Source: a virus. Taken from it: a stretch of DNA of 26,158 bases. The notes beneath the pieces are model-generated. The model was not told where the DNA came from and did no database searches. It saw nothing but the letters and a program-made list of their open reading frames with translations. The stretch lies in IMG/VR virus record IMGVR_UViG_3300042346_000474, positions 1-26,158 of that record. The stretch is one strand, 5' to 3'. The translations under genes and the position numbers were made by a program. Shown piece by piece: positions 2,796 through 23,172 of this stretch; positions within the stretch are counted from its first letter, which is position 1; every line of letters begins with the position of its first letter.

Positions 2796-4651
2796 TTCTC
2801 GGATTTGGTAAGGCGTCCGCCAGTGGTAGCGTCAATGCTCATGCTTTTGATAATCGGTTGGCCGTCCAACGTGTTTATCGTGATGTCAGCCGCAAAGCCT
2901 CGTTTACCAATGGCGACGCGCCTGATGGATTCCTCCTGACCGCTGGACGTAAAGGTGTCGGTGATAGCCTCGGAATCTGGGCTGTAGACAGTGACTAGAG
3001 TCTCGATAGCACAATTGCCGTCGTACTCCAGTTCTACTGCCGTACTAGAGAACCGCTTCTCATGGCTGGTGCCATAGGTAAACTTACGGCTCTTGATAGA
3101 GCCTTGGACTGGGTAGAAGCGCCGAGCCATGGTATTCAAATAGAAACCATAGTTGTTAGGAGCGGGTAGGCCAGTGGCCCCCAATTGGGCTGGCAGGACA
3201 GTGATTCCTAGGGCGTCCACGTCGTCTCCTACGGCGTTTTCTTCCATCAGGTAAATACCTTGGCTGGAGACGCAGAACAGCCGCTTGCGGTCGTCCAGAA
3301 CGCATTCCAGCAGGTTGTTGATTGTGAACTTGGGGATGCTTTCCGTCGGCTGTGCCGCGGGGAAAGTATCCACGGACTCCCACGCTTTGTTTAGGCTGTT
3401 AAAAATAATGATGGTATCGTTCCCAGCGTCGCTGAGGGGGATAGCCATGTATAGGCGGTTGCTGTGGTAAATGCCTACCGCCTTGTCGGATATTGAACGT
3501 TTAATGTTCTGAATGACATCGTTAATAGGGGCGGACAGAGGCTCGATGCTGTTAATCAACCTGAGGTCCAATTGAGGTTCCAGAAGGTACACGCCGCCGT
3601 CGCTGAGGAAGAACACGAACCTGCCAGCGTTAACGATAGCCTTAGGGCCTACGGCGCCGAAGGCATTGGTAAGCGTCTGGATGAAGGACGTCGTGTCAGG
3701 CCCTTCCCCTGTGGCAAATTGCTGGTTTTCAATTTTAGCCCTAAAAACCCCATTGCGCTGAAAGATGAGGAACTCGTTATCTGCCCAAGGGGTAAACCCG
3801 ACGATTCGGTCGTAGGCGCCTTGGTTAATGGTAAACTGCCCAAAGGTCAGGTCCCACATGTTATAGTCGAGGTAGTCCGAGGCCGCAATCTTGTCCCTGT
3901 CGCGTTTAACAATCACGCGGTTGCCGTAGAACATGCCTACCTCGCATGGAGGGAAGTTGGCGTCTACGCCCTCAATGTCTCCTTGAGTGACGATTTGAAC
4001 GGCACCGCTACCAGCCCATGCCAGCGGAGACTTTCCCTTCTGGAAGACGCATGTTCCAGTGTGGTTGTTGGTGGCTGGGGCCGTAAGAGTATAACGGAAC
4101 GTATTGGTCGTTACGTTGCTGATTATGTAAGAGCCGTGCGCGTACGTATGGCCAGCCACGCTAGACATGATGACCTCGTCGCCGTTCTGTAGGCCATGGC
4201 TGTTGAACGTGACCGTTGCGGTAGTTCCTCCGTTGGTAAGAACGATACTGCCAGTCCTAGGTTCGGCTGGCTCCCCGCGCAGGATAAACAGGTGGTCTAT
4301 AGCCTGAAACACCATGCCTTTATCAGAGGCAGACACTGGGCGAGGTAGTACGAAAAACTGAGTGGTTCCATTGGTGTTAGGGTCAAAGATGTAAAGCCTG
4401 TTGCTAGTGACCACGGCAATCTTTTCGACCCCGCTCTTGGTCACATAAACGCATGACATGAGCGGCGTCAGGCCGAGCAAGTCAGCGGGCGTTACGTTCT
4501 TGTTCCCTCTACGGATAGAGGCATGCCCGCGCTCAAGGCGCGTGTTTTGGGAATACTGAAGGTACTGAGGCTTAAGCATAGAGGAGTTCGTGCGGCTTTC
4601 AAAGCCCACGAATCCTCCGTCTACATCCTGCTTGTACTCAGCATTAGGCAT
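2792..4651 (-). CDS. Tail nozzle / tail tubular protein B-like (619 aa)
   Basis: I chose ATG at 4651 (MPNAEYKQDVDGG) because it overlaps the previous stop as TGATG. The longer frame up to 4729 only reads into the upstream gene. The N-terminal part (about 15 to 60) has the layout seen in podoviral nozzle proteins, with Gln/Asn/Arg/Gly-rich SQNTRLERGHASIRRG. It is followed by repeated beta-blades (KIAVVTSNRLYIFDP, GMVFQAIDHLFILRG, NEFLIFQRNGVFR, RFVFFLSDGGVYLL). The motif KIAASDYLDYNMWDL matches the surface-exposed stretch of such proteins. Length is in the 600 to 800 aa range of T7 gp12-like and P22 gp10-like nozzles. It would form the distal hexameric tube that DNA passes through. The family is clear by pattern; a profile search would settle which subtype. 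Confidence 0.8.
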   Translation of the reverse strand: MPNAEYKQDVDGGFVGFESRTNSSMLKPQYLQYSQNTRLERGHASIRRGNKNVTPADLLGLTPLMSCVYVTKSGVEKIAVVTSNRLYIFDPNTNGTTQFFVLPRPVSASDKGMVFQAIDHLFILRGEPAEPRTGSIVLTNGGTTATVTFNSHGLQNGDEVIMSSVAGHTYAHGSYIISNVTTNTFRYTLTAPATNNHTGTCVFQKGKSPLAWAGSGAVQIVTQGDIEGVDANFPPCEVGMFYGNRVIVKRDRDKIAASDYLDYNMWDLTFGQFTINQGAYDRIVGFTPWADNEFLIFQRNGVFRAKIENQQFATGEGPDTTSFIQTLTNAFGAVGPKAIVNAGRFVFFLSDGGVYLLEPQLDLRLINSIEPLSAPINDVIQNIKRSISDKAVGIYHSNRLYMAIPLSDAGNDTIIIFNSLNKAWESVDTFPAAQPTESIPKFTINNLLECVLDDRKRLFCVSSQGIYLMEENAVGDDVDALGITVLPAQLGATGLPAPNNYGFYLNTMARRFYPVQGSIKSRKFTYGTSHEKRFSSTAVELEYDGNCAIETLVTVYSPDSEAITDTFTSSGQEESIRRVAIGKRGFAADITINTLDGQPIIKSMSIDATTGGRLTKSEK

Positions 4652-9336: not shown

Positions 9337-11790
9337 TTACATCGGCTGGGGCATGGGGGGAGCCTCGGCGCCTTCGGGAGGCATCTGCTGGGGCGGCTGA
9401 CCGCCTCCCTGCATCTGCTGTTGGACCATGGCGATAGCCTGTTCCTGCGGGACGCCTTGGGAGACCAGTTCTTGGACCATGGCTTCCATCTGCATGCGCA
9501 TATCGCCTCCAGCGACCTGTTGCTGTTGCGCCTGAGCCATCTGCTCCTGCTGGGCCAAGCCTTCTGCGCCAAAGTCTGCCTGAGCCTGAGACTTGCCCTC
9601 TCCTCGGGCCTTCTGGGCCTCTTTGGCCTGTTCGATGAACCCTTTGACCTGTTCGGCAAGGGAAGTTCCTTGGGGAGCCACGCCAGTGCGCCCAGTCTGC
9701 TTGTTCTGCTCCTGCTGGACCGACATGGTGAGGTTCTGGACGTAAGTCTGGAACAACTGCTGGAACAACTGGTCGCCCTGAAGCGCCTGTTGAGCCTTGG
9801 GGTTCTGCTGGAGAATCTGCTGGGCCAGTTGAATCTTGGACTGTGCCGAAGGGTCGGATTCGACAAGTTGCGGGGCGTTGCCAAGCAACATGAGGCCAAT
9901 GTCGGTCTGGACGTCTCGGAACATCTTCTGGGACGCCTGTTCAGAGTCGGTGATGAGGTCCTTGCCGAGGTCAGGGCTGATGGCCTCAATGACCTTCTTG
10001 AGCAACTTGGTTCGGTCAATTACGCCGCCAGAATCCAGAGGAACGGCGAACTTGGTAATAGCGTCCAACTTTTCCATGACGAGGTTCGTGTCGACCTCGC
10101 GGACGTCGAACTTGATGAAGAAGTCAAAACCGCCGTGAATCTCGCTGGCGTTAGACGGAAGGTCCACGCCGCAGATGCGAACCTTCTCCTGCGGGGTCAG
10201 GTACTGAAGAGCCAACGCGAACACCTGCTGATAGATTTCAGTCCAGCAAGACAGCCAAGAATTGACCAGCGTCTGCTGGAGCAACTGGGAGCGAACGTCT
10301 TCAACGTACTTAGACGTCAGGCCGTAATAAGCCGCATGCTGAGCCTCTACGCGCTCAATCATGCTAAACGCTACCTGAGGATTGCCAGCGGGCGGTTCGA
10401 GGAACGTGTAATCGTCCTTGGAAGTGACAGGCAACTGAACAGCAGGTCCAAGGCGGTTGAGGGCGCCGATGCGCTTGCTTACGCGGAGCGGCGGCAGGGT
10501 TTCAATCGCGGTACGGTCGCGAAGCGAGTCATGCTGGGCCTTGATTTCGTCTTGGTCGGTTCGGCTGACCTCGGGAATGCCTCGGGACTCCATGATAGCG
10601 CGCCGAATCCATTCGCGGCGGAAACCGACAAACGGATACTTGCCGTGGTAGTAGTCTAGAATCTCATGTTTTCCGTAGGAATTGTTTCCGACCTGCGGTG
10701 AAAACACAGTGTAGTAAATGGCTGGGATGCCCTCGTCGTTAATCTGGCGGGCATAGGAATACACGATTTCAATCATGTTGCGGCCGCGCCACACGTTCGT
10801 CGTGAGGACGTTGGTAACAGGCGTCAGGCTAGGGTCATTGTACATCGACGCTTTGCCGATGCTGGCACAAGCCTGTTCAATGAAGTCGCTGGACCAGCCG
10901 TCCGTATGTTCCATGGCCCTGACTTCAACCTCGGTCAGGAAAGTTCGGCGGAAAATTACGCGCGCTCGGTTAAGGTCAGTGGTTTCCTGAGGGAACGTAA
11001 CCTCGTCGTAAGGCTTGAGGGCGGTGACGCAGGGTGCGTTGCTGAAGACGTAAGGCTCTTCAATCTCCGCCGCGCCTTCTTCTCGGAGTTGTCGGACCAT
11101 CTTCTTGCAGTCGCTGACCTTGGCGTTGTTCATTACGGCGGAAAGCATCTGGGCAAGGTAATCGTCGTTTTCCGCGTCCATGATGAGTTCAGGCAGTTTG
11201 CTGAGGACGCCTTCGGGGTCCTGCTCGGCCTGAAGTTCGGAAATGGCCGTCAGGTCATCCATGGTGACCTTCTGGCGGCGCAAAGCCGTCTGCTGGTCCC
11301 AAGTGACGTGGAAAACAGTCCAGCCGTACTGAAGGGCGTACTGGGCGGCAAGGTAAGCCTCCTGATACATTTCGCGGCTCTGGCGGCTTTCAAGGAGCCA
11401 GCGCATGAGGTTGCCAGCCGAGGAAGCGTTCGCGGCATCTTCCGAGGTCACGCCGCTGACGCGCAAGACACTGCGCTGGAAAGCGGTAATAAGAAGGGAC
11501 GTCAGGTCATTGATAGTTCGGTCAACGAGGCGGACGCGGACGTCTGAGGCGCCTTCCCACGGCATGGCAGGGTTGCCGTTGCCGCGCGGGTCGCTGTGCT
11601 TTTTTCCGTCGTCGGTCTGCCCAGCCCATCGGCAGAACCGAATATCGTCCATGGCCGCGAGGCGGTCGAGCGACGAGCCGTTGTACAGGCTGTCGTTAAA
11701 CTCGCGGATAAGGTTATCGACGTCAGGCTTCTTGGAAGCCTGAGCGGTGGCGTCAACCGTGCGACTGCCCTTGGGGTATAGAGGTTTCAT
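9337..11790 (-). CDS. Portal protein, long podoviral type (817 aa)
   Basis: The start is ATG 11790, which lies inside the end of the preceding small HTH gene (38-bp overlap). The N-terminus shows a typical portal opening: a helix (DVDNLIREFNDSLYNG), RFCRWAGQTDDGKKHS, then WEGASDVRVRLVDRTINDL. Further portal-like features are LAAQYALQYGWTVFHVTWDQ, a strand-rich middle with the aromatic clip/stem area (YYTVFSPQ, HGKYPFVGFRREW), and SRTDQDEIKAQHDSLRDRT. The C-terminal 170 residues are extremely Gln/Ala/Met-rich, and the last 50 are Gln/Pro/Gly/Met-rich, like the barrel tails of long podoviral portals. The length exceeds P22 gp1 (725 aa). It makes the dodecameric DNA channel at one capsid vertex, docking terminase and then adaptor. 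Confidence 0.85.
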   Translation of the reverse strand: MKPLYPKGSRTVDATAQASKKPDVDNLIREFNDSLYNGSSLDRLAAMDDIRFCRWAGQTDDGKKHSDPRGNGNPAMPWEGASDVRVRLVDRTINDLTSLLITAFQRSVLRVSGVTSEDAANASSAGNLMRWLLESRQSREMYQEAYLAAQYALQYGWTVFHVTWDQQTALRRQKVTMDDLTAISELQAEQDPEGVLSKLPELIMDAENDDYLAQMLSAVMNNAKVSDCKKMVRQLREEGAAEIEEPYVFSNAPCVTALKPYDEVTFPQETTDLNRARVIFRRTFLTEVEVRAMEHTDGWSSDFIEQACASIGKASMYNDPSLTPVTNVLTTNVWRGRNMIEIVYSYARQINDEGIPAIYYTVFSPQVGNNSYGKHEILDYYHGKYPFVGFRREWIRRAIMESRGIPEVSRTDQDEIKAQHDSLRDRTAIETLPPLRVSKRIGALNRLGPAVQLPVTSKDDYTFLEPPAGNPQVAFSMIERVEAQHAAYYGLTSKYVEDVRSQLLQQTLVNSWLSCWTEIYQQVFALALQYLTPQEKVRICGVDLPSNASEIHGGFDFFIKFDVREVDTNLVMEKLDAITKFAVPLDSGGVIDRTKLLKKVIEAISPDLGKDLITDSEQASQKMFRDVQTDIGLMLLGNAPQLVESDPSAQSKIQLAQQILQQNPKAQQALQGDQLFQQLFQTYVQNLTMSVQQEQNKQTGRTGVAPQGTSLAEQVKGFIEQAKEAQKARGEGKSQAQADFGAEGLAQQEQMAQAQQQQVAGGDMRMQMEAMVQELVSQGVPQEQAIAMVQQQMQGGGQPPQQMPPEGAEAPPMPQPM

Positions 11791-11953
11791 TTAGTTTGAT
11801 GTGTTGAATAAGTTCGTCTCGGTAAAATCGGTGATGGCCACCCTTGGTGACATACGTACGGAGGGTGCCGTCCTTGCGAAGCCTGTCGAGGTATCTTACG
11901 GACAGGCCAGTGAGTTGGGACGCGGCTTTGCGCGATAGGAGGGGGGGTGTCAT
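11753..11953 (-). CDS. MerR/excisionase-type helix-turn-helix protein (66 aa)
   Basis: ATG 11953 lies one base past the large-terminase stop. Residues 5 to 52 form a complete HTH_17-type domain: LLSRKAASQLTGLSVRYLDR (helix-turn-helix), then LRKDGTLRTYVTKGGHHRF (wing) and YRDELIQHI. The pattern 'AA..LG.S...L.R....G.L......GGHRRF' is that of excisionase and MerR DNA-binding domains. The 3' end overlaps the portal start by 38 bp, in another frame. No integrase is in the window, so excisionase activity is unlikely to be its job. It could regulate the late operon or, being small and DNA-binding next to terminase, recognise packaging DNA; that last idea is speculation. Confidence 0.75.
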   Translation of the reverse strand: MTPPLLSRKAASQLTGLSVRYLDRLRKDGTLRTYVTKGGHHRFYRDELIQHIKLNETSIPQGQSHG

Positions 11954-13913: not shown

Positions 13914-13975
13914 CGCTTACCTCCTCGAACAGGCTTGTTCATCTTGGACTTTTTGGGCTTTTTGTTTTTACTCAT
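13907..13975 (-). CDS. Very short, highly basic ORF (22 aa)
   Basis: ATG 13975 sits inside the last codons of the Gp88-like gene (8-bp overlap), and its TAA overlaps the start of the membrane-protein gene by 7 bp. The peptide MSKNKKPKKSKMNKPVRGGK ends in Arg-Cys. It holds ten Lys/Arg residues and no acidic residue. The overlap on both sides matches the way other genes of this operon are chained, which is the main argument for it. It may only be a coupling cistron that carries ribosomes from one gene to the next. There is no homology I recognise. Confidence 0.38.
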   Translation of the reverse strand: MSKNKKPKKSKMNKPVRGGKRC

Positions 13976-14615
13976 TGGGGGGAAGTTTATTGCGCTTGGA
14001 GTTCTCGACTAAGGCAAACGAGCCGCCTCGGCGCATGGCATGGAAATCGTTCATATCGACAGGAAGACCTCGGGATGCGGCCTCTTCCTCGGACTGTACC
14101 ACCATGGCAAACCGCAGGTTGTGCTGTTCGATAAGAAAATCGCTACGACCGCCGTACGAAGCGGTCATGGCTAGGTTGACTGGTATTTCGTTCTTACGTG
14201 CCACCCAGAAAGGCAGGGACTTGGTAAACGCCCAGAACTGAACGGTCGGTCGCTTTCGGCAGACCTCGAGCCAAGCGTCAAAATAGTTCTGGCTAAAGAA
14301 GTCACCGCCTCCATGGATACGAACATGCGTCGCTTTATTCGGGAGTGCTTCGAGCAACATCCGTACAATTTCTCCATGGTTAAGGTGCTTGAGACTATCA
14401 AAGTTATCCCACACCTGCTTGCGCACGGCTGGGTAGCGCTCAACGGTAGCGGAGTAGCATCGGAATACTTGGTCCTTACCGTTTACAATTTTGCCAGTCT
14501 CACGGTCGGCAAATGCTTGGCATTCCTTGGCCTGAGGGCAGGACCATCCGCTGGGCAGGTTGAATGACCATGTACCTTTGGGCAGGTAAGAGTTACCTTT
14601 GGTAAACTTAATCAT
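13968..14615 (-). CDS. Gp88-like phage protein (215 aa)
   Basis: I chose ATG 14615 (MIKFTKGNSYLPKGTWSFNL) because it overlaps the upstream stop as TGATG; a longer frame to 14660 only reads into that gene. The N-terminal 'LPSGWSCPQAKECQAF' followed by 'VFRCYSATVERYPAVR' matches the start of the protein group named after mycobacteriophage gene product 88. The middle shows VRIHGGGDFFSQNYFDAW and VQFWAFTKSLPFW, which in that group form a conserved core with His, Gly and Asp. C42 and C48 (CPQAKEC), C69 and other Cys could bind metal. The biochemical role of the group is not established as far as I know. Here the gene opens the packaging operon. Confidence 0.7.
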   Translation of the reverse strand: MIKFTKGNSYLPKGTWSFNLPSGWSCPQAKECQAFADRETGKIVNGKDQVFRCYSATVERYPAVRKQVWDNFDSLKHLNHGEIVRMLLEALPNKATHVRIHGGGDFFSQNYFDAWLEVCRKRPTVQFWAFTKSLPFWVARKNEIPVNLAMTASYGGRSDFLIEQHNLRFAMVVQSEEEAASRGLPVDMNDFHAMRRGGSFALVENSKRNKLPPNE

Positions 14616-15073
14616 CAGAACTTCCCCCTGTAGCGCGGGTTGCGCATGGGTATCCACCACTTGGTGTACGAGCCGCCTGTGCGGGCTTCACACTTCATAC
14701 CCTTCATCCATTTGGACGAATCCTTCACCCTCATAATCACCTTCTCGCCCCCTTCGGCAAGAGCCTCGACGAGGTAGGGATTGCGGGGCAACACCCGAAT
14801 GACAGTGAGGGTGCGAATCTCGGCGCCGTCAGGCGCCGACGCGATTTTTTTTGGGGCCACTTCTTCGGTTTTCAGGCCGAGGTGAGCGGAAATCTTGGCC
14901 ACCCCAGAGGGGCGGAGCCACATCGGGCGCATGGGTTCGGGCTTGCTACCCTCCTCCCGAAAGTAGTCTTCGGCGTCGAGCACCTGCTTGCGCAGGTCGG
15001 ACAGCGCCTTGCGTTGCATGCCCAGTTGCTTGGCCACGTCAGCCTCGCGTACAGGCGCATCGGGTAGTTCCAT
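14615..15073 (-). CDS. Putative DNA-binding protein at the head of the packaging operon (152 aa)
   Basis: First gene after the non-coding switch region; ATG 15073 is preceded by TTAGTTAGGTCC and no Shine-Dalgarno. Residues 1 to 35 look like a helix-turn-helix (VREADVAKQLGMQRKALSDL, then RKQVLDAEDYF). A Pro/Ala linker follows. The C-terminal part (about 88-152) contains LTVIRVLPRNPYLVEALAE, KVIMRVKDSSKWMKGM and WWIPMRNPRYRGKF, a small beta domain with conserved Asn-Pro and Pro-Arg turns that I have seen in phage proteins without a named role. A late-operon regulator or small-terminase function would fit its place, but nothing proves either. Confidence 0.72.
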   Translation of the reverse strand: MELPDAPVREADVAKQLGMQRKALSDLRKQVLDAEDYFREEGSKPEPMRPMWLRPSGVAKISAHLGLKTEEVAPKKIASAPDGAEIRTLTVIRVLPRNPYLVEALAEGGEKVIMRVKDSSKWMKGMKCEARTGGSYTKWWIPMRNPRYRGKF

Positions 15074-15095: not shown

Positions 15096-15411
15096 TATGA
15101 CACACTGCAAGCCTCCTTTTGCCAAATTATTTCTTCTGGTTGAATGCGTAGGGGTAACCGCGGGCGATTGCTCATCAGACCCCCCCCACCCCCTATGACA
15201 CTTATGACGTAGGTGGCTATGACAGGCGCCTATGACACTAGGGGCTATGACAGTGTATGACACTGATGGCTGGCAGGGCTATGACACTGGTATGACAATC
15301 GTAACTGTCGTAACCGTATGACACTGGCATGGTTCGGGCGCAGGGGCCTAGGAGGGCCTAGGAGGCGGGCTTGGGCTAGGGGCTAGGCACTGAGCCGTGC
15401 ATGCTATGACA
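15096..15411 (+). repeat. Eleven copies of TATGACA/TATGACG (iteron-like cluster)
   Basis: The heptamer begins at 15096, 15194, 15203 (TATGACG), 15218, 15231, 15246, 15256, 15280, 15291, 15317 and 15405, all on the plus strand. Many extend to TATGACACT. Eight lie within 104 bp, with start-to-start spacings of 9, 15, 13, 15, 10, 24 and 11, then 26 to the ninth. A given 7-mer is expected about once in 16 kb per strand. The same TATGACACT appears on the minus strand upstream of three early promoters (plus-strand AGTGTCATA at 16595, 17769 and 19658). It is likely a recognition site for a phage-encoded protein. Confidence 0.75.
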
Positions 15412-15599
15412 ATGGCCTTGTAGGGGCCTCAGCGCTATTCTTTTGGGGTATTGCCACTGTGGTCTGGGGCATCCGAAGGATGGGTGGGCTAGGTAGGGCT
15501 AGGCTGGTGCTAGGCGGGCCTGAGGCTGGCGCACGTGGCGCAGGGCCGAGCAGGGCGGCTGAGGGGCCTAGGAGGCGCTACAGGGGCTTGGGATAGGTT

Positions 15600-15733: not shown

Positions 15734-16492
15734 TTACTCGGCGCTCTTGAGGACGGCGTCGATGGTCTGGTCGACGTGGTCGCGGGCGGCGTGGGCGTCG
15801 GCGGAGTAGAACGCCTTGATGACGTCGGCGAGGACCTCAGCGGCCTTCCAAGCCTTGCTGAAGGCGTGGGCGTCGATGGACTCGTACGGCAGGTTGGTGG
15901 AGGTCAGGTTGAAGCCTTCGGCGGTGACGCGCACAGGGCTGAAGGTGGTGACCTTCGGGTTGCCGTCGCGGTCGACGTAGGCGCGGCTGAACTCGACCTC
16001 GAAGGACGAGAGGGCGCTGGTGTAGCCCGCTTGGATGTTCACGCGGATGCCGTCGAACTCGCCGAAGCCAGTGGCGTTGTCGATGACGATGGAGCGGACC
16101 TGCTTCCAGTCCTTCTGCTCAACGGAGCGGCGGAAGGCGCGGGCGATTTCGACGATGCCAGCGACGCGGTGGAAGTCGACGTTGAGGCGGGCGCTGGCGC
16201 GCTGGAGGGCGGCGTCGACGGCGGAGTCGAGGAGGGCGACGTCGATGACGGCGAGCGCCTCAGCCTTGGCGGCGGCGAGCACCTCGTACGACTTCTCGTC
16301 GGCGTCCTTGGCCGCTTCGTAGGCGGGCTTGGTCGCGGCGATGAGCAGGTCGCGGGACTTGTTGCGCTTCGACAGCGACTGGGCGGCGTCGAACGCCTCG
16401 AACGCGGCCTTGCGGGCGAGGGAGGATTCGACGCGAGCGCGAGCGGCGTTGATGAGGGCGGTGGTGTTGATGGCGGTGGTGATGTTGTTCAT
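15734..16492 (-). CDS. Early-region protein of unknown function, alanine-rich (252 aa)
   Basis: The start is ATG 16492 (MNNITTAINTTALINAARAR). It follows the shared leader ending CAACACACACCATG, and the frame's longer extension to 16567 runs through the promoter. The first 140 residues are Ala/Glu/Lys/Asp-rich helices (ESSLARKAAFEAFDAAQSLS, YEVLAAAKAEALAVIDVALL). The central part has strands (VRSIVIDNATGFGEFDGIRV, LSSFEVEFSRAYVDRDGNP). The C-terminus returns to helices. No cysteines or known catalytic motif. It is the last gene before the switch region and sits alone behind one of the four repeated promoters, so expression is probably controlled together with the other early units. Function unknown. 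Confidence 0.75.
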   Translation of the reverse strand: MNNITTAINTTALINAARARVESSLARKAAFEAFDAAQSLSKRNKSRDLLIAATKPAYEAAKDADEKSYEVLAAAKAEALAVIDVALLDSAVDAALQRASARLNVDFHRVAGIVEIARAFRRSVEQKDWKQVRSIVIDNATGFGEFDGIRVNIQAGYTSALSSFEVEFSRAYVDRDGNPKVTTFSPVRVTAEGFNLTSTNLPYESIDAHAFSKAWKAAEVLADVIKAFYSADAHAARDHVDQTIDAVLKSAE

Positions 16493-16538
16493 GGTGTGTG
16501 TTGGTTTGGTGGTTGATGTCGCTCGGGGCGACGAGGGG

Positions 16539-16567
16539 AATAGAACAGGTGTTCGAGGGTGGGTCAA
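16539..16567 (-). promoter_or_regulatory. Repeated early promoter/operator, copy A
   Basis: Minus strand: TTGACC (16567-16562), 17-bp spacer, TCTATT (16544-16539). The palindrome GAACACCTGTTC (16554-16543) overlaps the spacer end and the first bases of the -10. The predicted start of transcription is about 40 nt upstream of ATG 16492. Of the four copies its -10 is closest to TATAAT. TATGACACT lies farther upstream at 16603-16595. A repressor on the palindrome would block RNA polymerase. Confidence 0.65.
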
Positions 16568-16614
16568 GCGCTCAGGTGAGATTTCTTTGGCTCGAGTGTC
16601 ATAGGGTCTGGCGC

Positions 16615-17688
16615 TCAGGCTTGGCTGGCCTTGAGCACCTTCTTGTCGGCGGGGGTGAGGGTGGGGCGGGAGCCGAAGTAGAACCCAGCGTCCTCGGTGG
16701 CCTCGACGGTGACGACGAAGGTCACGGTGCGGCCGACGAGGATATCGCGCTCAGTGCGGTCCGTGGCGTTGTAGATGGCGTTCCAAGCGGCGGTGTGGCC
16801 CTCAGGGTCCTGCACGGCCCACAGGCTGGCGAGGTCGCTCGGGAGGCTGGTCCAGACCTTGCGCTGGTCGGCGAGGCGGACGAGGTACTTGCGCGTGGTG
16901 CCGAAGTCGTTGGTCTTGTCCTTGAACGACAGGACCTCAGCGGTGATGGTCACGCGGCCGCTGAGCGGCGCGAGCGTCGACAGGCTGGCCTTGAGCGCGG
17001 CGGCGCTGGAGGCGCGCTCACGGAGGCGCTGGAGGTTGGCGGCGGCGAACTCGCGCGACTTGGTCAGGCCGCTGACGAGCAGGGCGCGCTGGCCGTCGCT
17101 GACCTTCCAGTCGTACTTGCGGGAGCGCACGGCGATGTCGCCGAGTATGCGGACGCCGCGGAAGATGGCCTTGGAGACTTCGTCGCCCTCGAGGCTGTCG
17201 ACGGACACGCCGAGGCGGGCGCACTCGCGCGCCTTGACCTTGGCCCAGTTGTTGTCGTCGGCGTCCTCGAGCGCGGCTTCGAGCGCGTCGTGCAATTCGG
17301 CGTCGGTGTCGGCGAGCGCGATGAACGCGGCGTCGCGGCGCTGGCGCTCGCGCACGGCGGCGGCGGACTGGCGCAGGGCCTTGAACTTGAAGTCGCTGTT
17401 GCTCAGGCCGAGGCGGTTGTCGGCGCAGGTGTGGCCGATGGTGATGTAGGTCGACGTGGGCTTGTGGAGCGCGACGCCGATGTAGCGCGCGTACGAGCCG
17501 CAGTGCTGGCACTGGCAGGGAAGCCAGTCGGCGTTGAAGTAGCGCTGGGCGGCTTCGTGCGCTTCGCGGGCTTCGTCCTCGAGGCCGTCGTACTGGTCAG
17601 CGCGCGTGTCGAACACGCCGACGAGACGGTAGTCCTCGGGCTTGAAGTTGCTGGGATTGTGGATGCTGGCGGTGGTGTTGTCGTTCAT
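16615..17688 (-). CDS. Zinc-finger protein with C-terminal OB-like domain (357 aa)
   Basis: ATG 17688 follows the leader AACCCACCCACCACC. Residues 55-90 hold a zinc-binding cluster: LPCQCQHCGSY (C58, C60, C63) and IGHTCADNR (H86, C88), adjacent to a phage-typical 'YITIGHTCADNRLGL' segment. A helical, Asp/Glu/Arg-rich middle (about 100-235) follows. The C-terminal 100 residues (GRVTITAEVLSFKDKTNDFG, TRKYLVRLADQRKVWTSLPS, GRTVTFVVTVEATEDAGFYF, then SRPTL) form a beta domain like the one that follows such zinc clusters in many phage proteins. The OB-like label is inferred from strand pattern. The known examples are uncharacterised; nucleic-acid binding is the natural guess. It forms a single-gene unit behind promoter copy B. 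Confidence 0.78.
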   Translation of the reverse strand: MNDNTTASIHNPSNFKPEDYRLVGVFDTRADQYDGLEDEAREAHEAAQRYFNADWLPCQCQHCGSYARYIGVALHKPTSTYITIGHTCADNRLGLSNSDFKFKALRQSAAAVRERQRRDAAFIALADTDAELHDALEAALEDADDNNWAKVKARECARLGVSVDSLEGDEVSKAIFRGVRILGDIAVRSRKYDWKVSDGQRALLVSGLTKSREFAAANLQRLRERASSAAALKASLSTLAPLSGRVTITAEVLSFKDKTNDFGTTRKYLVRLADQRKVWTSLPSDLASLWAVQDPEGHTAAWNAIYNATDRTERDILVGRTVTFVVTVEATEDAGFYFGSRPTLTPADKKVLKASQA

Positions 17689-17712
17689 GGTGGTGGGTGG
17701 GTTGAGGGCTGG

Positions 17713-17741
17713 AGTGGAACAGGTGTTCCAGTCGGTGTCAA
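17713..17741 (-). promoter_or_regulatory. Repeated early promoter/operator, copy B
   Basis: Minus strand: TTGACA (17741-17736), 17-bp spacer, TCCACT (17718-17713), with GAACACCTGTTC at 17728-17717. The -35 lies in GGTGTTGACACC, itself almost palindromic. TATGACACT lies upstream at 17777-17769, and CCTAGG between. The expected transcript leader to ATG 17688 is about 18 nt. Confidence 0.68.
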
Positions 17742-17789
17742 CACCTAGGCCCCACTTTCGTGAGGCCCAGTGTCATACGGCCTGAGGAG

Positions 17790-17851
17790 CCGCCCTGCTG
17801 TCCACCGCCGCGCTTCGGCTAGGCTGGTTGGGGGCGTGGTGTGCAGGGCGG
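17790..17851 (-). terminator. Long-loop inverted repeat after an early operon
   Basis: A perfect 9-bp inverted repeat CCGCCCTGC / GCAGGGCGG (17790-17798 with 17843-17851) begins 8 bp after the stop at 17859. The 44-nt loop contains a smaller GCCG/CGGC stem, so the whole could fold as one extended hairpin. No U-tract follows. Position and the shared CCCTGC core with the hairpin at 15683 suggest termination or transcript processing. Confidence 0.4.
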
Positions 17852-17858
17852 TCCAAGG

Positions 17859-18158
17859 TCATAGGTCGGTGCGGGGGCCAGCGGCCTTCAGGAGGGCCAG
17901 CGCGGCCTCGGCGTCGACCGCATCGTCGACGTCCTGCGCGTAGCCGCTCGCCCTGCACCGTTCGTTCAGGTCCACGACGCGCAACTCCAGCCGCGCGACG
18001 TCGCGGGCGTGGAGGGCGTTCCAGAGGGCTTGGCGGGCCACCTGCTGGTCAGCGATGGAGCCGTAGCGATGGGCGTGGAGTTCGTCGGCCTGAGCCGCGT
18101 AGGCGGCTTGCACGGCGCGCTCGAGCGCGGCCTTGGCTTTGGCGGTGTCTTCGCTCAT
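17859..18158 (-). CDS. Small helical early protein (99 aa)
   Basis: ATG 18158 lies three bases past the preceding stop. It is Ala-rich and helical throughout: EDTAKAKAALERAVQAAYAA, QQVARQALWNALHARDVARL, ELRVVDLNERCRASGY, and a final DAVDAEAALALLK. One Cys, no membrane segment, no known motif. It is the last gene of the unit that starts at promoter copy C. An inverted repeat follows its stop. Possibly a coiled-coil inhibitor-type early protein, but nothing in the sequence shows a target. Confidence 0.7.
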   Translation of the reverse strand: MSEDTAKAKAALERAVQAAYAAQADELHAHRYGSIADQQVARQALWNALHARDVARLELRVVDLNERCRASGYAQDVDDAVDAEAALALLKAAGPRTDL

Positions 18159-18161
18159 GGC

Positions 18162-18515
18162 TCAGAGGGCTTCGTCGAACTGCTCGACGGCGTAGATGTA
18201 GCCCCTGCCGTTCGGCGTGGGGAACGCGACGAGGCGCGTGTGGATTCGCTCGAGCGGCCTGAGGCCGAGCGCGACGTCGTCGGCGGTCTGGTCCTCGAGC
18301 CAGCGCAGGAGCGCGTGGCGCGCGGCGGCGTCATGGTTGTCCGAGGGCTTGCCCTCGTAGGACCACGACACGTAGGCGCGGCGGACGGCCTCGTCGCCGA
18401 AGCGCACGGTGGCCACGACGCGGGCGCCGCGGGTGTTGGTCGGCCCGCAGTACTGCGTCGTGACGCTCAGGCGCACGTGGTTGATGGCGTAGGTGATGTT
18501 GATGGGATGCTTCAT
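18162..18515 (-). CDS. Early protein of unknown function (117 aa)
   Basis: ATG 18515 follows the shared leader CAACCCACCAACCCAGCAAC. The product is MKHPINITYAINHVRLSV..., with beta strands in the first half (RLSVTTQYCG, ARVVATVRFGDEAVRRAYVS, then WSYEGK), a helix (NHDAAARHALLRWLEDQ) and a strand-rich end (TRLVAFPTPNGRGYIYAVEQ). It looks like a small alpha/beta protein; I recognise no family. Second gene of the copy C unit. Confidence 0.72.
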   Translation of the reverse strand: MKHPINITYAINHVRLSVTTQYCGPTNTRGARVVATVRFGDEAVRRAYVSWSYEGKPSDNHDAAARHALLRWLEDQTADDVALGLRPLERIHTRLVAFPTPNGRGYIYAVEQFDEAL

Positions 18516-18557
18516 GGTGTTGCTGGGTTGGTGGGTTGATGGAAAGGGAGGGAGCGC

Positions 18558-19571
18558 TCAGGCGCTCCACTTCTCGAGGGTGGCTTCGTCTTCGTGGCTC
18601 GAAGCGATTTCGCGCGTGGGCCACTGGTTGAACGCCTTGCCGTACTTGCTGAAGTTCACGATGCACTTGGTCTCGAAGCGGTACTGGTGCGAGCCGCAGG
18701 TGACGGTGATGATGGCGCCGTCCCAGATGGCGTTGTTGTCGGACGTCGACGCGGTCACGGTGACCTTGGTCTCGCCAGTGGCGAGGTGATGGCGGGCGAT
18801 GGTGCGGTCGGCGACGCGGTAAGCGTACGTGCCGACGACGAGGTCGGCGTACTGCGTGGCGACGGCGCGCAGGTGGCGCTCGGTGTTGGCCTCGGTCTTC
18901 AGGACGCGGTCAGCGGCAGGGGTGCGGTAGGAGTCCTCGGCGTCGACGAGCAGGGCGCGCTCGGCGTTGAACTCGATGGCGCGCTCGCGAGCGGTGCGCG
19001 AAGCGGAGTAGTGCCAGAAGTCGCTCCACGACTTGCCCGAGCGGTACGTGCCTTCGCACGACTGGTAGGCGACGTCCTTCGCGGGGTTGGCCTCGACGAA
19101 CTTCACGAACTCGGCGCGGAGGGCGTTGGCGGCGGAGACGAGCGCGCGGGTCTTGCGCTCGGCGATGTAATCGCGGACGACGGACAGCGACGCGGCGATG
19201 AGGTTCGCGCTCGGCGTGACGAGGCGGACGCGCTCTTTCTGGTCCTTGGCCTTGCTGGCCTTAGCGGCCTTGCGCTCAGCCTTGGCGGCGTCCTCGATGC
19301 GCTTCTTGGGCAGACGCTCGGCCTTCTCGGCCCAGTCGCGGCACTTGCAAGCGAGGTCCCACTGAGCGTAGGCGTCGGAGCCGTAGGAAGCCTTGCCAGC
19401 GTCCTGAGCGGCGCGGTAGATGGCCTCGCACTCCTTGGCCTTGACGCGCAAGAGCGGGGCGACCGCGGTGAGCACGTCGCTCGCGAGGTCCCAGAACTGC
19501 TTGGGCTTGAGGGTGAGCACGATGTCGGCGGTGACGTTCGTGGCGGTGATGTTGGCGGTGTTGTTGTTCAT
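18558..19571 (-). CDS. Early protein of unknown function (337 aa)
   Basis: ATG 19571 follows ACCAACCCAAAAAATACC. The N-terminal two thirds are helical and highly charged. They include a Cys-containing stretch (AQWDLACKCRDWAEKAERL) and a Lys/Ala-rich run (KRIEDAAKAERKAAKASKAK) that may be a coiled coil or nucleic-acid-binding arm. The part around 165-190 has SCEGTYRSGKSWSDFWHYS; SGKS resembles a fragment of a P-loop but lacks the preceding GxxxxG, so I do not call it an ATPase. The C-terminal 80 residues are beta-rich (ETKVTVTASTSDNNAIWDGA, IITVTCGSHQYRFETKCIV). First gene behind promoter copy C. Function unknown. Confidence 0.75.
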   Translation of the reverse strand: MNNNTANITATNVTADIVLTLKPKQFWDLASDVLTAVAPLLRVKAKECEAIYRAAQDAGKASYGSDAYAQWDLACKCRDWAEKAERLPKKRIEDAAKAERKAAKASKAKDQKERVRLVTPSANLIAASLSVVRDYIAERKTRALVSAANALRAEFVKFVEANPAKDVAYQSCEGTYRSGKSWSDFWHYSASRTARERAIEFNAERALLVDAEDSYRTPAADRVLKTEANTERHLRAVATQYADLVVGTYAYRVADRTIARHHLATGETKVTVTASTSDNNAIWDGAIITVTCGSHQYRFETKCIVNFSKYGKAFNQWPTREIASSHEDEATLEKWSA

Positions 19572-19619
19572 GGTATTTTTTGGGTTGGTGGATTGCGCCG
19601 CTCGGGGCGACGTGATGGG

Positions 19620-19648
19620 AGTGGAACAGGTGTTCGACTGGACGTCAA
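19620..19648 (-). promoter_or_regulatory. Repeated early promoter/operator, copy C
   Basis: Minus strand: TTGACG (19648-19643), 17-bp spacer, TCCACT (19625-19620), with GAACACCTGTTC at 19635-19624. The -35 starts only 4 bp after the upstream gene's TAG. The accompanying TATGACACT (19666-19658) is embedded in that gene's last codons (Tyr-Asp-Thr-Arg-stop). The leader to ATG 19571 is about 42 nt. Confidence 0.68.
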
Positions 19649-19651
19649 CAC

Positions 19652-20029
19652 CTATCGAGTGTCATACGAGGCGCGCTCCAGCAGGGCGCTCAGGCGGGCG
19701 GTCGGGACCGAGGCCCAGAGGCACTGGCCCGCTTCGTTCAACAGGTCGACGCGCTCGGCAGGGTACGACGGCGGGCCGCAGAGGCCCTTGTACGCCGCGT
19801 ACAGGCGCTCGCCCTGCTCAGGGGTAGGTCCGATGTCCCTAAGCCTGAAGGCTGGCACGTAGCCGCTCACGACGAGCGCGCCGCCTAGGCGGCTGAGCGA
19901 TGTCGACACGGCGATGCCGTCGAGCGGCAGGGGGACAGCGCTGAACGCATACAGGTCGGCGAAGTCAGACAGACGGCCCAAGGCGCTGGCGCGCGCGAGG
20001 GCGTCGATTGCTTTGTCGCCGTTGCTCAT
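19652..20029 (-). CDS. Early protein of unknown function (125 aa)
   Basis: The start ATG 20029 (MSNGDKAIDALARASALGRL) overlaps the preceding stop (ATGA). The longer frame to 20170 is Arg-rich shadow sequence. The protein has helices (RLSDFADLYAFSAVPLP) and a hydrophobic strand region (ALVVSGYVPAFRLRDIG), then PTPEQGERLYAAYKGLCGPP and a C-terminal helical part. No recognised motif. The final codons contain the TATGACACT element. It is the last gene of the copy D unit. Confidence 0.72.
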   Translation of the reverse strand: MSNGDKAIDALARASALGRLSDFADLYAFSAVPLPLDGIAVSTSLSRLGGALVVSGYVPAFRLRDIGPTPEQGERLYAAYKGLCGPPSYPAERVDLLNEAGQCLWASVPTARLSALLERASYDTR

Positions 20030-20220
20030 TCGTCGCCCTCGTCGAGACCGAGGTAGGCTTGCAGGGCTTCGACGTGGCGGCACGTCTGGCCCGAGGTGAG
20101 GTAGAGGTGCGGCTCGGCGGCGACGGCCTCGAGCACGACGTGCAGGTCGGCGTCGTCGTACTCGTCCCACCGCTCAGGCTGGCTGAGGATGGCGAAGCAC
20201 CCGATGTGATTGTGGCTCAC
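20026..20220 (-). CDS. Small acidic early protein (64 aa)
   Basis: The start is GTG at 20220 inside a GTGA overlap with the previous stop; the gene ends in an ATGA overlap. It is acidic, with a mixed pattern: MSHNHIGCFAILSQPERWDE, DADLHVVLEAVAAEPHLYL and a C-terminal helix HVEALQAYLGLDEGDE. Two Cys and five His residues occur, but no ordered metal site is evident. Unknown function. Its coupling on both sides supports it as a true gene. Confidence 0.65.
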   Translation of the reverse strand: MSHNHIGCFAILSQPERWDEYDDADLHVVLEAVAAEPHLYLTSGQTCRHVEALQAYLGLDEGDE

Positions 20221-20468
20221 TGAGCACCTCCCTTCGTGATGCGTTCCCAGTGGGCGAACTCGATGGCCGCGAGTTCGGCCGCGACGCTGTCGAGTTCGGC
20301 TTCGGCCTTGGCGCGCTCGGTCGGGCTGATGTAGTCGTCGCCCGCGTTGCCGAGGGTGCCGTCGACGAGCGCCAGAAGGCGCACGTGGCGCTCCAGCAGG
20401 TGCTGGTAGCGCGGGGTGTTTTCCGCGGCGATGCGCGCGGCTTGGTGGTGGTTGATGTTATCGGTCAT
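20217..20468 (-). CDS. Small helical early protein (83 aa)
   Basis: The start ATG 20468 (MTDNINHHQAARIAAENTPR) follows the leader CCAACCCACCCACCACC. A longer frame to 20834 is Arg-rich shadow sequence over the next gene. The product is helical with heptad-like Leu spacing (RYQHLLERHVRLLALVDGTL, ERAKAEAELDSVAAELAAIE) and could form a coiled coil. Second gene of the copy D unit, 20 bp after the first. Function unknown. Confidence 0.72.
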   Translation of the reverse strand: MTDNINHHQAARIAAENTPRYQHLLERHVRLLALVDGTLGNAGDDYISPTERAKAEAELDSVAAELAAIEFAHWERITKGGAQ

Positions 20469-20488
20469 GGTGGTGGGTGGGTTGGAGG

Positions 20489-21001
20489 TTAGCGGGCGTT
20501 GACGTGGAAGCGGAAGGCGGCGTCGCGGATGGCCTCGACGATGCCGATGGAGGCGGTGACGAACTCGATGCGCTCGGCGCTCGGGACGCCGACGGCGGCG
20601 GCGCGCTGGACGCGCTCGAGGTAGGCAGTGACCTTGTTGTCGGCGGCTTCCTGAGCGGCTTCGTCGGCGTCGTAGAAGGCGTCCTTCTCTTCGTCGGTCA
20701 GCGTGGCGAGGTGAGCGCGCTCGGCAGTGTAGTCGGAGCCGAACTTCGTGGCGCCGTAGGCGGCGACGCGCGGGAAGTCCTCGACCTTGACGTCGGTGGT
20801 CAGCACGTACTGGTTGTTGACCTTGTCGGTCCACGTCTGGACGAGGACCTGAGCGTGAGCGTCGAAGGAGACGCCGTCGTCGGTCGTGCCGTAGAAGTGA
20901 ACCTTGTAGACGTACTTCGAGCCGTCGAAGTAGCGGGACTCGGCGTCGTACTTGGTGGTGTCGACTTCGGCGTTGGTGATGGTGTTAGGGATGTTGGTCA
21001 T
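20489..21001 (-). CDS. Early protein of unknown function (170 aa)
   Basis: The start ATG 21001 (MTNIPNTITNAEVDTTKYDA) is placed right after the shared leader ACCCACCAAACACC. The longer frame to 21061 crosses the promoter. The first 75 residues form a beta-rich unit with alternating aromatics (RYFDGSKYVYKVHFYGTTDD, DAHAQVLVQTWTDKVNNQYV, LTTDVKVEDF). The second part is helical and acidic (LTDEEKDAFYDADEAAQEAA) and ends in SIGIVEAIRDAAFRFHVNAR. No known family. First gene of the copy D unit. Confidence 0.75.
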   Translation of the reverse strand: MTNIPNTITNAEVDTTKYDAESRYFDGSKYVYKVHFYGTTDDGVSFDAHAQVLVQTWTDKVNNQYVLTTDVKVEDFPRVAAYGATKFGSDYTAERAHLATLTDEEKDAFYDADEAAQEAADNKVTAYLERVQRAAAVGVPSAERIEFVTASIGIVEAIRDAAFRFHVNAR

Positions 21002-21026
21002 GGTGTTTGGTGGGTTGGAGGTGAAC

Positions 21027-21055
21027 AGTGGAACAGGTTTTCTAGTGGGTGTCAA
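21027..21055 (-). promoter_or_regulatory. Repeated early promoter/operator, copy D
   Basis: Minus strand: TTGACA (21055-21050), 17-bp spacer, TCCACT (21032-21027). The palindrome is imperfect (GAAAACCTGTTC, 21042-21031), with one changed base in the upstream half-site. No TATGACACT lies directly upstream. Control may therefore be looser than at copies A to C. The leader to ATG 21001 is about 19 nt. Confidence 0.62.
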
Positions 21056-21073: not shown

Positions 21074-21850
21074 TTATCGGGCGGCAGGGAGGTTGAGCGC
21101 GGCCACGGCCTCGAGGACCGCGAGGGCCTCGGCGTGGCTGAGGTCGGAGAACGAGACCGAGGTGTAGACCGAGTCCTTGCGGCTCTTGGTCTCGACCGAC
21201 GGCAGGACGTGCTTCAGGTCGGCGACGGTCTTGGCCACCTTGGCCTGAGCGGCGCGGTTCTCGACGGTCTCGTTCGCGTTCTTCTCGAGGCGGGCGACTT
21301 CTTCCGCGGCGCGCTCGATGCCCTCGAGCAGGGTGAGGCCAGACTGAGCCGCGGCCTTGCGGATGGTCGCGACCTTGATGACTTGGTCCTTGAAGCCGCG
21401 CTGGGCGGTGCCGACGCGAGTGTCGTTGCGGTCGTCCTCGCGGACGTCCAGAGACGGCAGGGTGACGTTCAGGTCGTGACGCTCGCCGCGGGAGCCAGTG
21501 CGCGTCGTGTGCAGGAGGACCTGCGCGACGGTGACCAGATTGCCGTAGCCGCGGACGACCTCGCGCTGGACGCCGTAGGCGGCGTTCTCGTAGATGCCAG
21601 CGCCGATGGCGTTCAGCGCTTCGTGGCGCTTAGCGAGGTCGGCGATGGCCTTGGAGATATCGGCTTTGACGGTCCAGCCGCAGGGCCAGCCAGCGCCGCC
21701 CTTGACTTCGACGACCTCGAGCGTCACGCCGTGCGGGGCGTTGTCGAGGAACTGGCCGACGATGGCGTCGCGGATGACCTCGAAGGCGAGGTGCTGGGAT
21801 TCGGTCGTCTGGACGTCAGACGAGGTGATGGTGGTGTTGATATCAGGCAT
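21074..21850 (-). CDS. Early protein of unknown function (258 aa)
   Basis: ATG 21850 (MPDINTTITSSDVQTTESQH) follows a leader ending CCAACATACCCACC. It combines an N-terminal helical part and strand (HLAFEVIRDAIVGQFL, GVTLEVVEVKGGAGWPCGW), a helix-rich middle (SKAIADLAKRHEALNAIGAG), strands (NLVTVAQVLLHTTRTGSR, RHDLNVTLPSLDVRED) and a long C-terminal coiled-coil-like helix (LLEGIERAAEEVARLEKNAN). No motif recognised. The upstream 99 bp lack the GAACACCTGTTC palindrome but contain GGTGTTGCAC, similar to the -35 surroundings of the other units. The promoter is therefore related at most. Confidence 0.75.
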   Translation of the reverse strand: MPDINTTITSSDVQTTESQHLAFEVIRDAIVGQFLDNAPHGVTLEVVEVKGGAGWPCGWTVKADISKAIADLAKRHEALNAIGAGIYENAAYGVQREVVRGYGNLVTVAQVLLHTTRTGSRGERHDLNVTLPSLDVREDDRNDTRVGTAQRGFKDQVIKVATIRKAAAQSGLTLLEGIERAAEEVARLEKNANETVENRAAQAKVAKTVADLKHVLPSVETKSRKDSVYTSVSFSDLSHAEALAVLEAVAALNLPAAR

Positions 21851-21949: not shown

Positions 21950-22168
21950 TTATGACACTTTTCCAGAAATGCCCTCAGAATCGGCCTTGGCGCCCTTTGC
22001 GCCGACGAGGCTTGGCCTACCTAGGCCAGCCCTCAGGACCTGCCGTACGGCGGCAGGGAAGGCCAGTCCTAGGCGCGTGGCCAGCCGCTGGATGTCAGCG
22101 GCCTCGTCGGGGTGCAAGCGCACCTGACGCCACTCGCGCGCGGGCGGCGTCTTAGAACGGAACGTCAT
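21950..22168 (-). CDS. Ribbon-helix-helix-like small protein (72 aa)
   Basis: ATG 22168 lies within the last codons of the Rad52-like gene, giving a 17-bp overlap in another frame. Residues 12-50 read EWRQVRLHPDEAADIQRLAT then RLGLAFPAAVRQVLRAGL: a short strand followed by two helices. That is the layout of ribbon-helix-helix DNA-binding proteins, where the strand contacts DNA as a dimer. The tail is Gly/Ser/Lys-rich. It is a reasonable candidate for the regulator of the palindromic operators just downstream, but no evidence links them. Its last codons (Val-Ser-stop) include TGTCATAA. Confidence 0.62.
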   Translation of the reverse strand: MTFRSKTPPAREWRQVRLHPDEAADIQRLATRLGLAFPAAVRQVLRAGLGRPSLVGAKGAKADSEGISGKVS

Positions 22169-22959: not shown

Positions 22960-23172
22960 TTAGTCGTCGTGGCGCAGGATGAGGCCGTTGACGGCGAGGC
23001 CGTCGATGTTGTAGTCGGCGTACTCGTACGCCTCCTCGATGGTCCAGTCGTTCATGGCGGTCAGGACCTTGATGATGCGCGAGTACGAATACACAGGTCG
23101 CTCATGCTTGTCGTGGTTGATGATGGCCGCGTCGAACTGAGCGCGCGGCTCGAGGTACAGGGCTGGCTTCAC
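22960..23172 (-). CDS. Small conserved phage protein (70 aa)
   Basis: I favour GTG 23172, giving a GTGA overlap with the SWIM gene like the other junctions. ATG 23208 would make an 82-aa protein but needs a 40-bp overlap. The core AQFDAAIINHDKHERPVYS, then YSRIIKVLTAMNDWTIEEAY and EYADYNIDGL, is a pattern I know from small phage proteins near replication genes: 'FD.A......VYS...II..L.....T.EEA.E...YN..G'. Their function is unknown to me. The product is acidic and probably globular. It is followed after 10 bp by the Rad52-like gene. Confidence 0.7.
   Translation of the reverse strand: MKPALYLEPRAQFDAAIINHDKHERPVYSYSRIIKVLTAMNDWTIEEAYEYADYNIDGLAVNGLILRHDD

Follow-up and report, generated by a model that had tools for sequence, protein, structure and literature searches.

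The virus record IMGVR_UViG_3300042346_000474, a complete IMG/VR entry analysed here over its whole length of 26,158 bp (hereafter the window), is probably a fragment of a larger genome, the main genes of which lie on the minus strand. Four short gene groups on this strand are each preceded by one copy of a composite element, in which a TTGAC-type −35 hexamer, a short palindrome and a −10 hexamer follow one another at fixed distances; this element and its putative regulator are the subject of the present study. The predicted promoters and the units behind them are:

15734-16492, minus strand: single-gene unit of promoter 1, with a relative in L089
16539-16567, minus strand: promoter 1, TTGACC-17-TCTATT, with the palindrome GAACACCTGTTC at 16543-16554
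16615-17688, minus strand: single-gene unit of promoter 2, phrog_4265-like, with a Cys-x-x-Cys/His motif and conserved in relatives
17713-17741, minus strand: promoter 2, TTGACA-17-TCCACT, with the palindrome at 17717-17728 and 7-bp arms, TGGAACA-CC-TGTTCCA
17859-19571, minus strand: three-gene unit of promoter 3 (18558-19571, 18162-18515, 17859-18158)
19620-19648, minus strand: promoter 3, TTGACG-17-TCCACT, with the palindrome at 19624-19635
19652-21001, minus strand: four-gene unit of promoter 4 (20489-21001, 20217-20468, 20026-20220, 19652-20029)
21027-21055, minus strand: promoter 4, TTGACA-17-TCCACT, with GAAAACCTGTTC at 21031-21042 (one change)

The four minus-strand sites lie exactly where the original prediction had placed them, and all conform to the strict TTGAC(A/C/G)-17 bp-TCCACT/TCTATT spacing that it described. 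The palindrome begins 8 nt after TTGAC in each case, three copies being perfect and the fourth (21031-21042) differing by one base, likewise as predicted, and it is followed by (C/T)A(C/T)T, which yields the TCCACT or TCTATT hexamer 17 bp from the −35. The pattern TTGAC-N8-GAA(C/A)ACCTGTTC has these four matches and no others in the window. In 1000 dinucleotide shuffles GAACACCTGTTC, counted three times here, reached a mean of 0.003 and a maximum of 1, and the looser TTGAC-N8-GA-N8-TC (four occurrences) a mean of 0.2 and a maximum of 2 in 1000 shuffles. A matrix built from the four sites scored them at 43-47 bits; the next best match in the window, at 10.6 bits, was the reverse reading of one of them, and nothing scored higher inside genes or elsewhere beyond the four sites. 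Two points of the earlier description required correction: the palindrome is interrupted, with 5-bp arms (GAACA/TGTTC) flanking CC, and its right arm doubles as part of the extended −10, therefore providing no evidence independent of the promoter. The proposed number of at least nine controlled genes holds as a count, since 4+3+1+1 open reading frames (ORFs) stand behind the four promoters.

The four sites are best explained as sigma-70-type promoters (TTGACA, 17 bp, extended −10 TGnTCYACT), presumably read by host RNA polymerase. Throughout 30 sites in eight genomes we found the features of this class, namely a TTGACA-like −35, a spacer of 16-18 bp, a −10 hexamer and a TG before it. The −10 reads TCYACT in sites of the window type, TCTAAT in leftward promoters and TATACT/GATACT in distant relatives. 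Five of the latter (L105, L106, L108, L111, L131) carry TTGACA-17-TATACT/GATACT/TAGACT, often preceded by TG, and TCCACT therefore marks the −10 position. As TCCACT is far from TATAAT (3/6 positions match), a scan with the sigma-70 consensus missed all four window promoters.

Relatives were collected by a terminase scan, which returned more than 300 from IMG/VR, 80 of which were kept; additional Erf-based, u3 and u2a scans yielded no further genome of the window's clade. Related phages sharing the promoter design (terminase identity 76-87%) display it before differing genes, with 2-8 promoters per genome, in G001-G006 and L091. G002-G005 possess an extra copy on the opposite strand, before a divergent leftward operon and with the better −10 TCTAAT, and G008 has the same sequence in its divergent leftward region. 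Beyond the −35 and −10, the 30 sites conserve T6 (29/30), G8 (30/30) and A10 (29/30) and, less strictly, A9 (24) and A12 (22), while positions 1, 2, 4 and 7 vary; sigma-70 promoters have no consensus at the left-arm positions T6, G8 and A10. The bases T6, G8, A10, A9 and A12 mirror A21, C19, W17, T18 and T15, which delimits a 16-bp operator, TNGAACANNTGWTCNA, over the extended −10, with half-site centres 11 bp apart. Pairing in the 30 sites amounts to 62% at the palindrome centre vs 6-41% at neighbouring centres. When a matrix of the 18-nt operator module was trained on the other genomes, leaving out the −35, the window sites ranked 1-4. Moreover, in two G005 promoters with a 16-bp spacer the left arm is fixed relative to the −10 and not to the −35. 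The letters themselves change among relatives, in which the operator drifts to GAACTTCTGATC or GTACATTTGTAC: both L091 sites have T9 and A18, the better one reading GTACA-TT-TGTAC at the price of a worsened −10, and one L102 site reads GAATA-TC-TATTC. A scan of IMG/VR for the composite gave 83 contigs with one match each, near a rough chance estimate, 4 of them in this phage family.

From this sequence comparison we conclude that the four sites are very probably promoters combined with an operator, so that the prediction of functional promoters with a built-in operator under one shared regulator appears well supported by conservation in relatives. Three observations weigh against it. The two arms of a site do not covary beyond the consensus (142 pairs for own arms, 142.5 for swapped ones), information per mirrored column is not significantly correlated, as would be expected if the right arm had a second role in the −10, and the palindromes of several relatives are imperfect. 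Given the lack of covariation, the argument for an operator rests on left-arm conservation and not on compensation.

Which protein would bind this operator? The regulator is likely encoded by the phage itself, and we give about even chances that it is a small putative ribbon-helix-helix (RHH) protein whose binding to the palindrome is predicted:

21950-22168, minus strand: putative RHH protein of 72 aa, candidate palindrome regulator, encoded at the end of the upstream Erf operon

A profile built from eight genomes found members of this protein, among about 90 loci, only in the window, G001, L091 and G002-G006, the same eight genomes in which this operator type occurs. In the genomes read, a promoter-like sequence directly follows the RHH gene. 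In the structural model an extended segment precedes two helices, at residues 20-33 and 37-48. W13, Q15 and R17 are among the invariant residues and alternate in the presumed strand. Fold and profile matches, weak as they are, fall mostly on RHH proteins (VapB, NikA, CopG, Arc); no Pfam model matched the 72-aa protein above its cut-off. The 11-bp spacing of the half-sites would suit two RHH dimers or one helix-turn-helix (HTH) dimer equally. Several points count against this assignment. The best E-values of the RHH matches were only 0.05 in one search and 0.17 in the other; the co-occurrence concerns a single clade and is confounded by descent; the related loci with other promoter spacers, in which no RHH gene was seen, do not all cover its position; and a 93-aa Cys/His protein at 23169 and the HTH protein at 14615 are also present in most or all of these genomes. 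The phage repressor suggested as one option in the original prediction is favoured by the co-occurrence in 8/8 genomes of this operator type, with loci of other types incompletely covered. Integrase, S24 and HTH_3 domains (PF00589, PF00717, PF01381) were all missing from eight records, near-complete ones included, so lysogeny control is unlikely; a CI-type lysogeny repressor was rejected on the same grounds.

Upstream of the four units and on the same strand lie genes for a lambda-O-like initiator, a DnaC-like loader, a lysozyme-like protein and a PD-(D/E)XK nuclease, together with the Erf annealing protein and the 72-aa RHH protein; downstream follow the conserved HTH protein and then terminase, portal and structural genes. 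From this gene order the four units may be called early. We propose that host polymerase would read the four promoters soon after entry, while expression of the Erf operon builds up the RHH protein. One dimeric or tetrameric phage protein, most likely RHH 21950-22168, would then bind TNGAACANNTGWTCNA over the spacer and the −10 and block the polymerase in the way Arc does on P22 Pant, so that the nine genes are switched off in the course of infection; a second factor at TATGACAC may help or modulate. We moderately favour this full scheme, in which a phage-encoded RHH repressor closes nine genes; it builds on the architecture, the operator-like conservation and the RHH co-occurrence, and its transcription, binding, repression and timing steps are predicted. 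One phage regulator and not a host DNA-damage repressor probably switches all four gene groups together.

A second candidate regulator and a second class of repeats are found nearby:

14615-15073, minus strand: conserved protein of 152 aa with HTH-like helices at the N-terminus and an OB-like fold at the C-terminus, which may bind the TATGACAC boxes
15096-15413, plus strand: cluster of 9 TATGACA(C/A/G) boxes, just upstream of the 14615-15073 gene
16595-16603, minus strand: TATGACACT box, 36 nt upstream of the promoter 1 −35
17769-17777, minus strand: TATGACACT box, 36 nt upstream of the promoter 2 −35
19658-19666, minus strand: TATGACACT box, 18 nt upstream of the promoter 3 −35

Such TATGACA(C) boxes also occur in G001, L091 and G005-G008, where 7-13 of them precede the HTH gene and single boxes stand at fixed distances before many −35 elements, on both strands; TATGACAC precedes the −35 by 16 nt in six G005 promoters, by 16-18 nt in L102 and by 18 or 36 nt in the window and G001. 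None was found in G002-G004, where GATC-containing repeats (AGATCAG, GGATCA) may replace them. A further TATGACA(C) box is located at window position 21951. In L089, at about 3011-3040 (G001 7661 onward), TATGACACTGCAACCGAACAATAGTTCTACT precedes the G001 relative of the window gene 21074-21850, and here a TATGACA box seems to serve as the −35, together with a GAACA-AT-AGTTC operator.

It is possible, though unlikely, that another phage protein such as this HTH/OB-fold protein is the regulator and that the RHH gene follows the clade by descent. These genomes all conserve the HTH protein as well, its gene adjoins the regulatory-looking repeat cluster, and the case for the RHH protein is co-occurrence within one clade only. 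However, the HTH protein is more widely conserved than the RHH protein, including in clades with quite different promoter spacers, and its target is more plausibly the TATGACA boxes that cluster before its own gene.

Less probable still is that an activator or a phage-modified polymerase occupies the site instead of the RHH repressor that we favour. The half-matching TCCACT (3/6 of TATAAT) would need help, and TATGACAC, which precedes the −35 by 16-18 or 36 nt, lies where an activator would usually bind, but the palindrome covers the −10 and the spacer, where bound proteins usually block polymerase, and the spacer of 16-17 bp differs from the 19-20 bp of MerR-type activation.

Spacers resemble each other more within (0.58) than between (0.33) genomes across 12 genomes, a difference reached by 0/2000 label shuffles, and sites 1 and 3 of the window also share the 5'-leader CGTCGCCCCGAGCG. 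Both observations would be accounted for by a recent cassette duplication that spread one promoter with an accidental palindrome and no operator, which we nonetheless judge quite improbable. The left-arm bases stay constant over the 30 sites in eight genomes, before unrelated genes, with additional copies on the other strand, while the neighbouring spacer varies; the operator module remains rigid to the −10 despite the loss of one spacer base; and L091 retains a palindrome written in different letters. Repeats differ elsewhere in the family: L115-L117 repeat CCCCCCTCCC and L126 repeats ACCCCACCCC, neither being palindromic. Together with the likeness within genomes, this identifies the shared spacer as clade-specific; shared descent or duplication explains part of the pattern, and a change of regulator may account for the rest. 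The promoters of these sister phages are present as 6-8 repeats with C-rich spacers, reading TTGACACCCCCCTCCC-(18)-TATAAC in L115-L117 (L115 6962-8183) and TTGACCACCCCACCCC-(18)-TAAATT in L126 (328-2726).

The terminase relatives in cellular genomes come mainly from metagenome-assembled genomes (MAGs) of Verrucomicrobiota (Pedosphaera at 48% identity, several Opitutae and Verrucomicrobiales), and because of this indirect link the host is probably a member of the Verrucomicrobia. The verrucomicrobial LexA motif was checked directly on genomes upstream of lexA, where the clear sites, about 30 nt from the gene (L237-L240), read TGTTC-N4-(G/A)AACA, in agreement with the half-site order TGTTC-N4-GAACA given in the original prediction. 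Host LexA (SOS) repression of the four units through a Gram-positive-type box, which that prediction had also considered, thus retains hardly any probability: the core GAAC-N4-GTTC equals that of the Firmicutes/Actinobacteria LexA box, but the arm order at verrucomicrobial lexA is the opposite, GAAC-N4-GTTC was found upstream of lexA in 0 of about 18 cases with an ORF, the composite promoter-operator site is absent from all 195 Verrucomicrobiota genomes (0/195), all 14 host palindromes examined in MAGs lie inside ORFs, and the drift of the operator among relatives is not expected under a fixed host LexA.

Comparison of the unit genes with PHROGs gave matches solely to families of unknown function. 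The unit proteins have N/T-rich stretches at the N-terminus, and both the leaders (21001-21026, 17689-17712, 19572-19619, 16493-16538) and the starts of the genes are rich in C and A and lack a Shine-Dalgarno sequence (CCAACCCACCACCATGAACAACA...). Between terminase and portal, 11753-11953 encodes a 66-aa HTH_17/MerR-like protein that is family-wide with up to 97% identity. Window positions 13968-14615 hold a GP88-family gene (Pfam PF17338, E 1e-37), present among the compared relatives only in L089 and L091. A tRNA search of the window found none; relatives carry adjacent tRNA-Thr(tgt) and tRNA-Arg(tct) genes (L167 1084-1233, L172 4956-5105, L182 15059-15208). The 45.8-kb relative G003 has a 127-bp terminal repeat and is likely a complete circular genome, about one third of which is a single ORF of 4,621 codons (L171-L172, G003 29604-43469).

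In the phage P22, the RHH protein Arc acts on Pant, a phage promoter with a palindromic operator whose half-sites are about one turn apart. The arrangement proposed here resembles it in the small RHH protein proposed and in the palindromic operator between and over the −35 and −10, and differs in having four or more promoters instead of one; the similarity is at the level of the fold, and binding is predicted. GAAC-N4-GTTC is the core of the LexA box in Firmicutes and Actinobacteria, and the phage site shares with SOS boxes these letters and the position over the promoter, but the verrucomicrobial arms are reversed, the phage site diverges among relatives and an SOS gene context is missing. 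Stoperators of Cluster A mycobacteriophages are 13-bp, asymmetric, monomer-bound and also located away from promoters (PMC9283540); one repressor with many sites per genome and group-differing specificity is common to both systems (PMC9283540), whereas the sites described here are palindromic and at promoters, and no lysogeny gene was found in the eight records. The ESAS of cluster K mycobacteriophages, 17-bp inverted repeats whose spacer varies, are associated with translation starts and have an unknown function (PMC3203893). Like SAS/ESAS, which are inverted repeats before many small genes with a consensus varying by subcluster (PMC3203893), our repeats recur before several genes, but they are fixed to a −35/−10 pair. 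The literature searched describes neither a promoter nor a regulator for this phage family, and the first report of a lytic Verrucomicrobia phage does not mention promoters (PMC4642752).

By this account, a known regulatory principle operates in a phage group not described before; less expected is that, from clade to clade, the shared spacer changes as a set. With a defined promoter, its operator and a single small candidate protein, the system is amenable to in vitro testing, and the relatives provide a natural series of jointly changed operator sets, which bears on the evolution of multi-site regulation. More tentatively, and at somewhat less than even chances, every genome of the family might hold several (up to about 10) promoter copies in which the spacer serves as a binding site specific to the clade (GAACANNTGTTC, CCCCCCTCCC, ACCCCACCCC, TCTGCA and others), the set being swapped along with its regulator between clades and TATGACAC acting as a second input. 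If true, these phages would offer a natural series for the specificity change of a multi-site regulon in phages without detected lysogeny genes.

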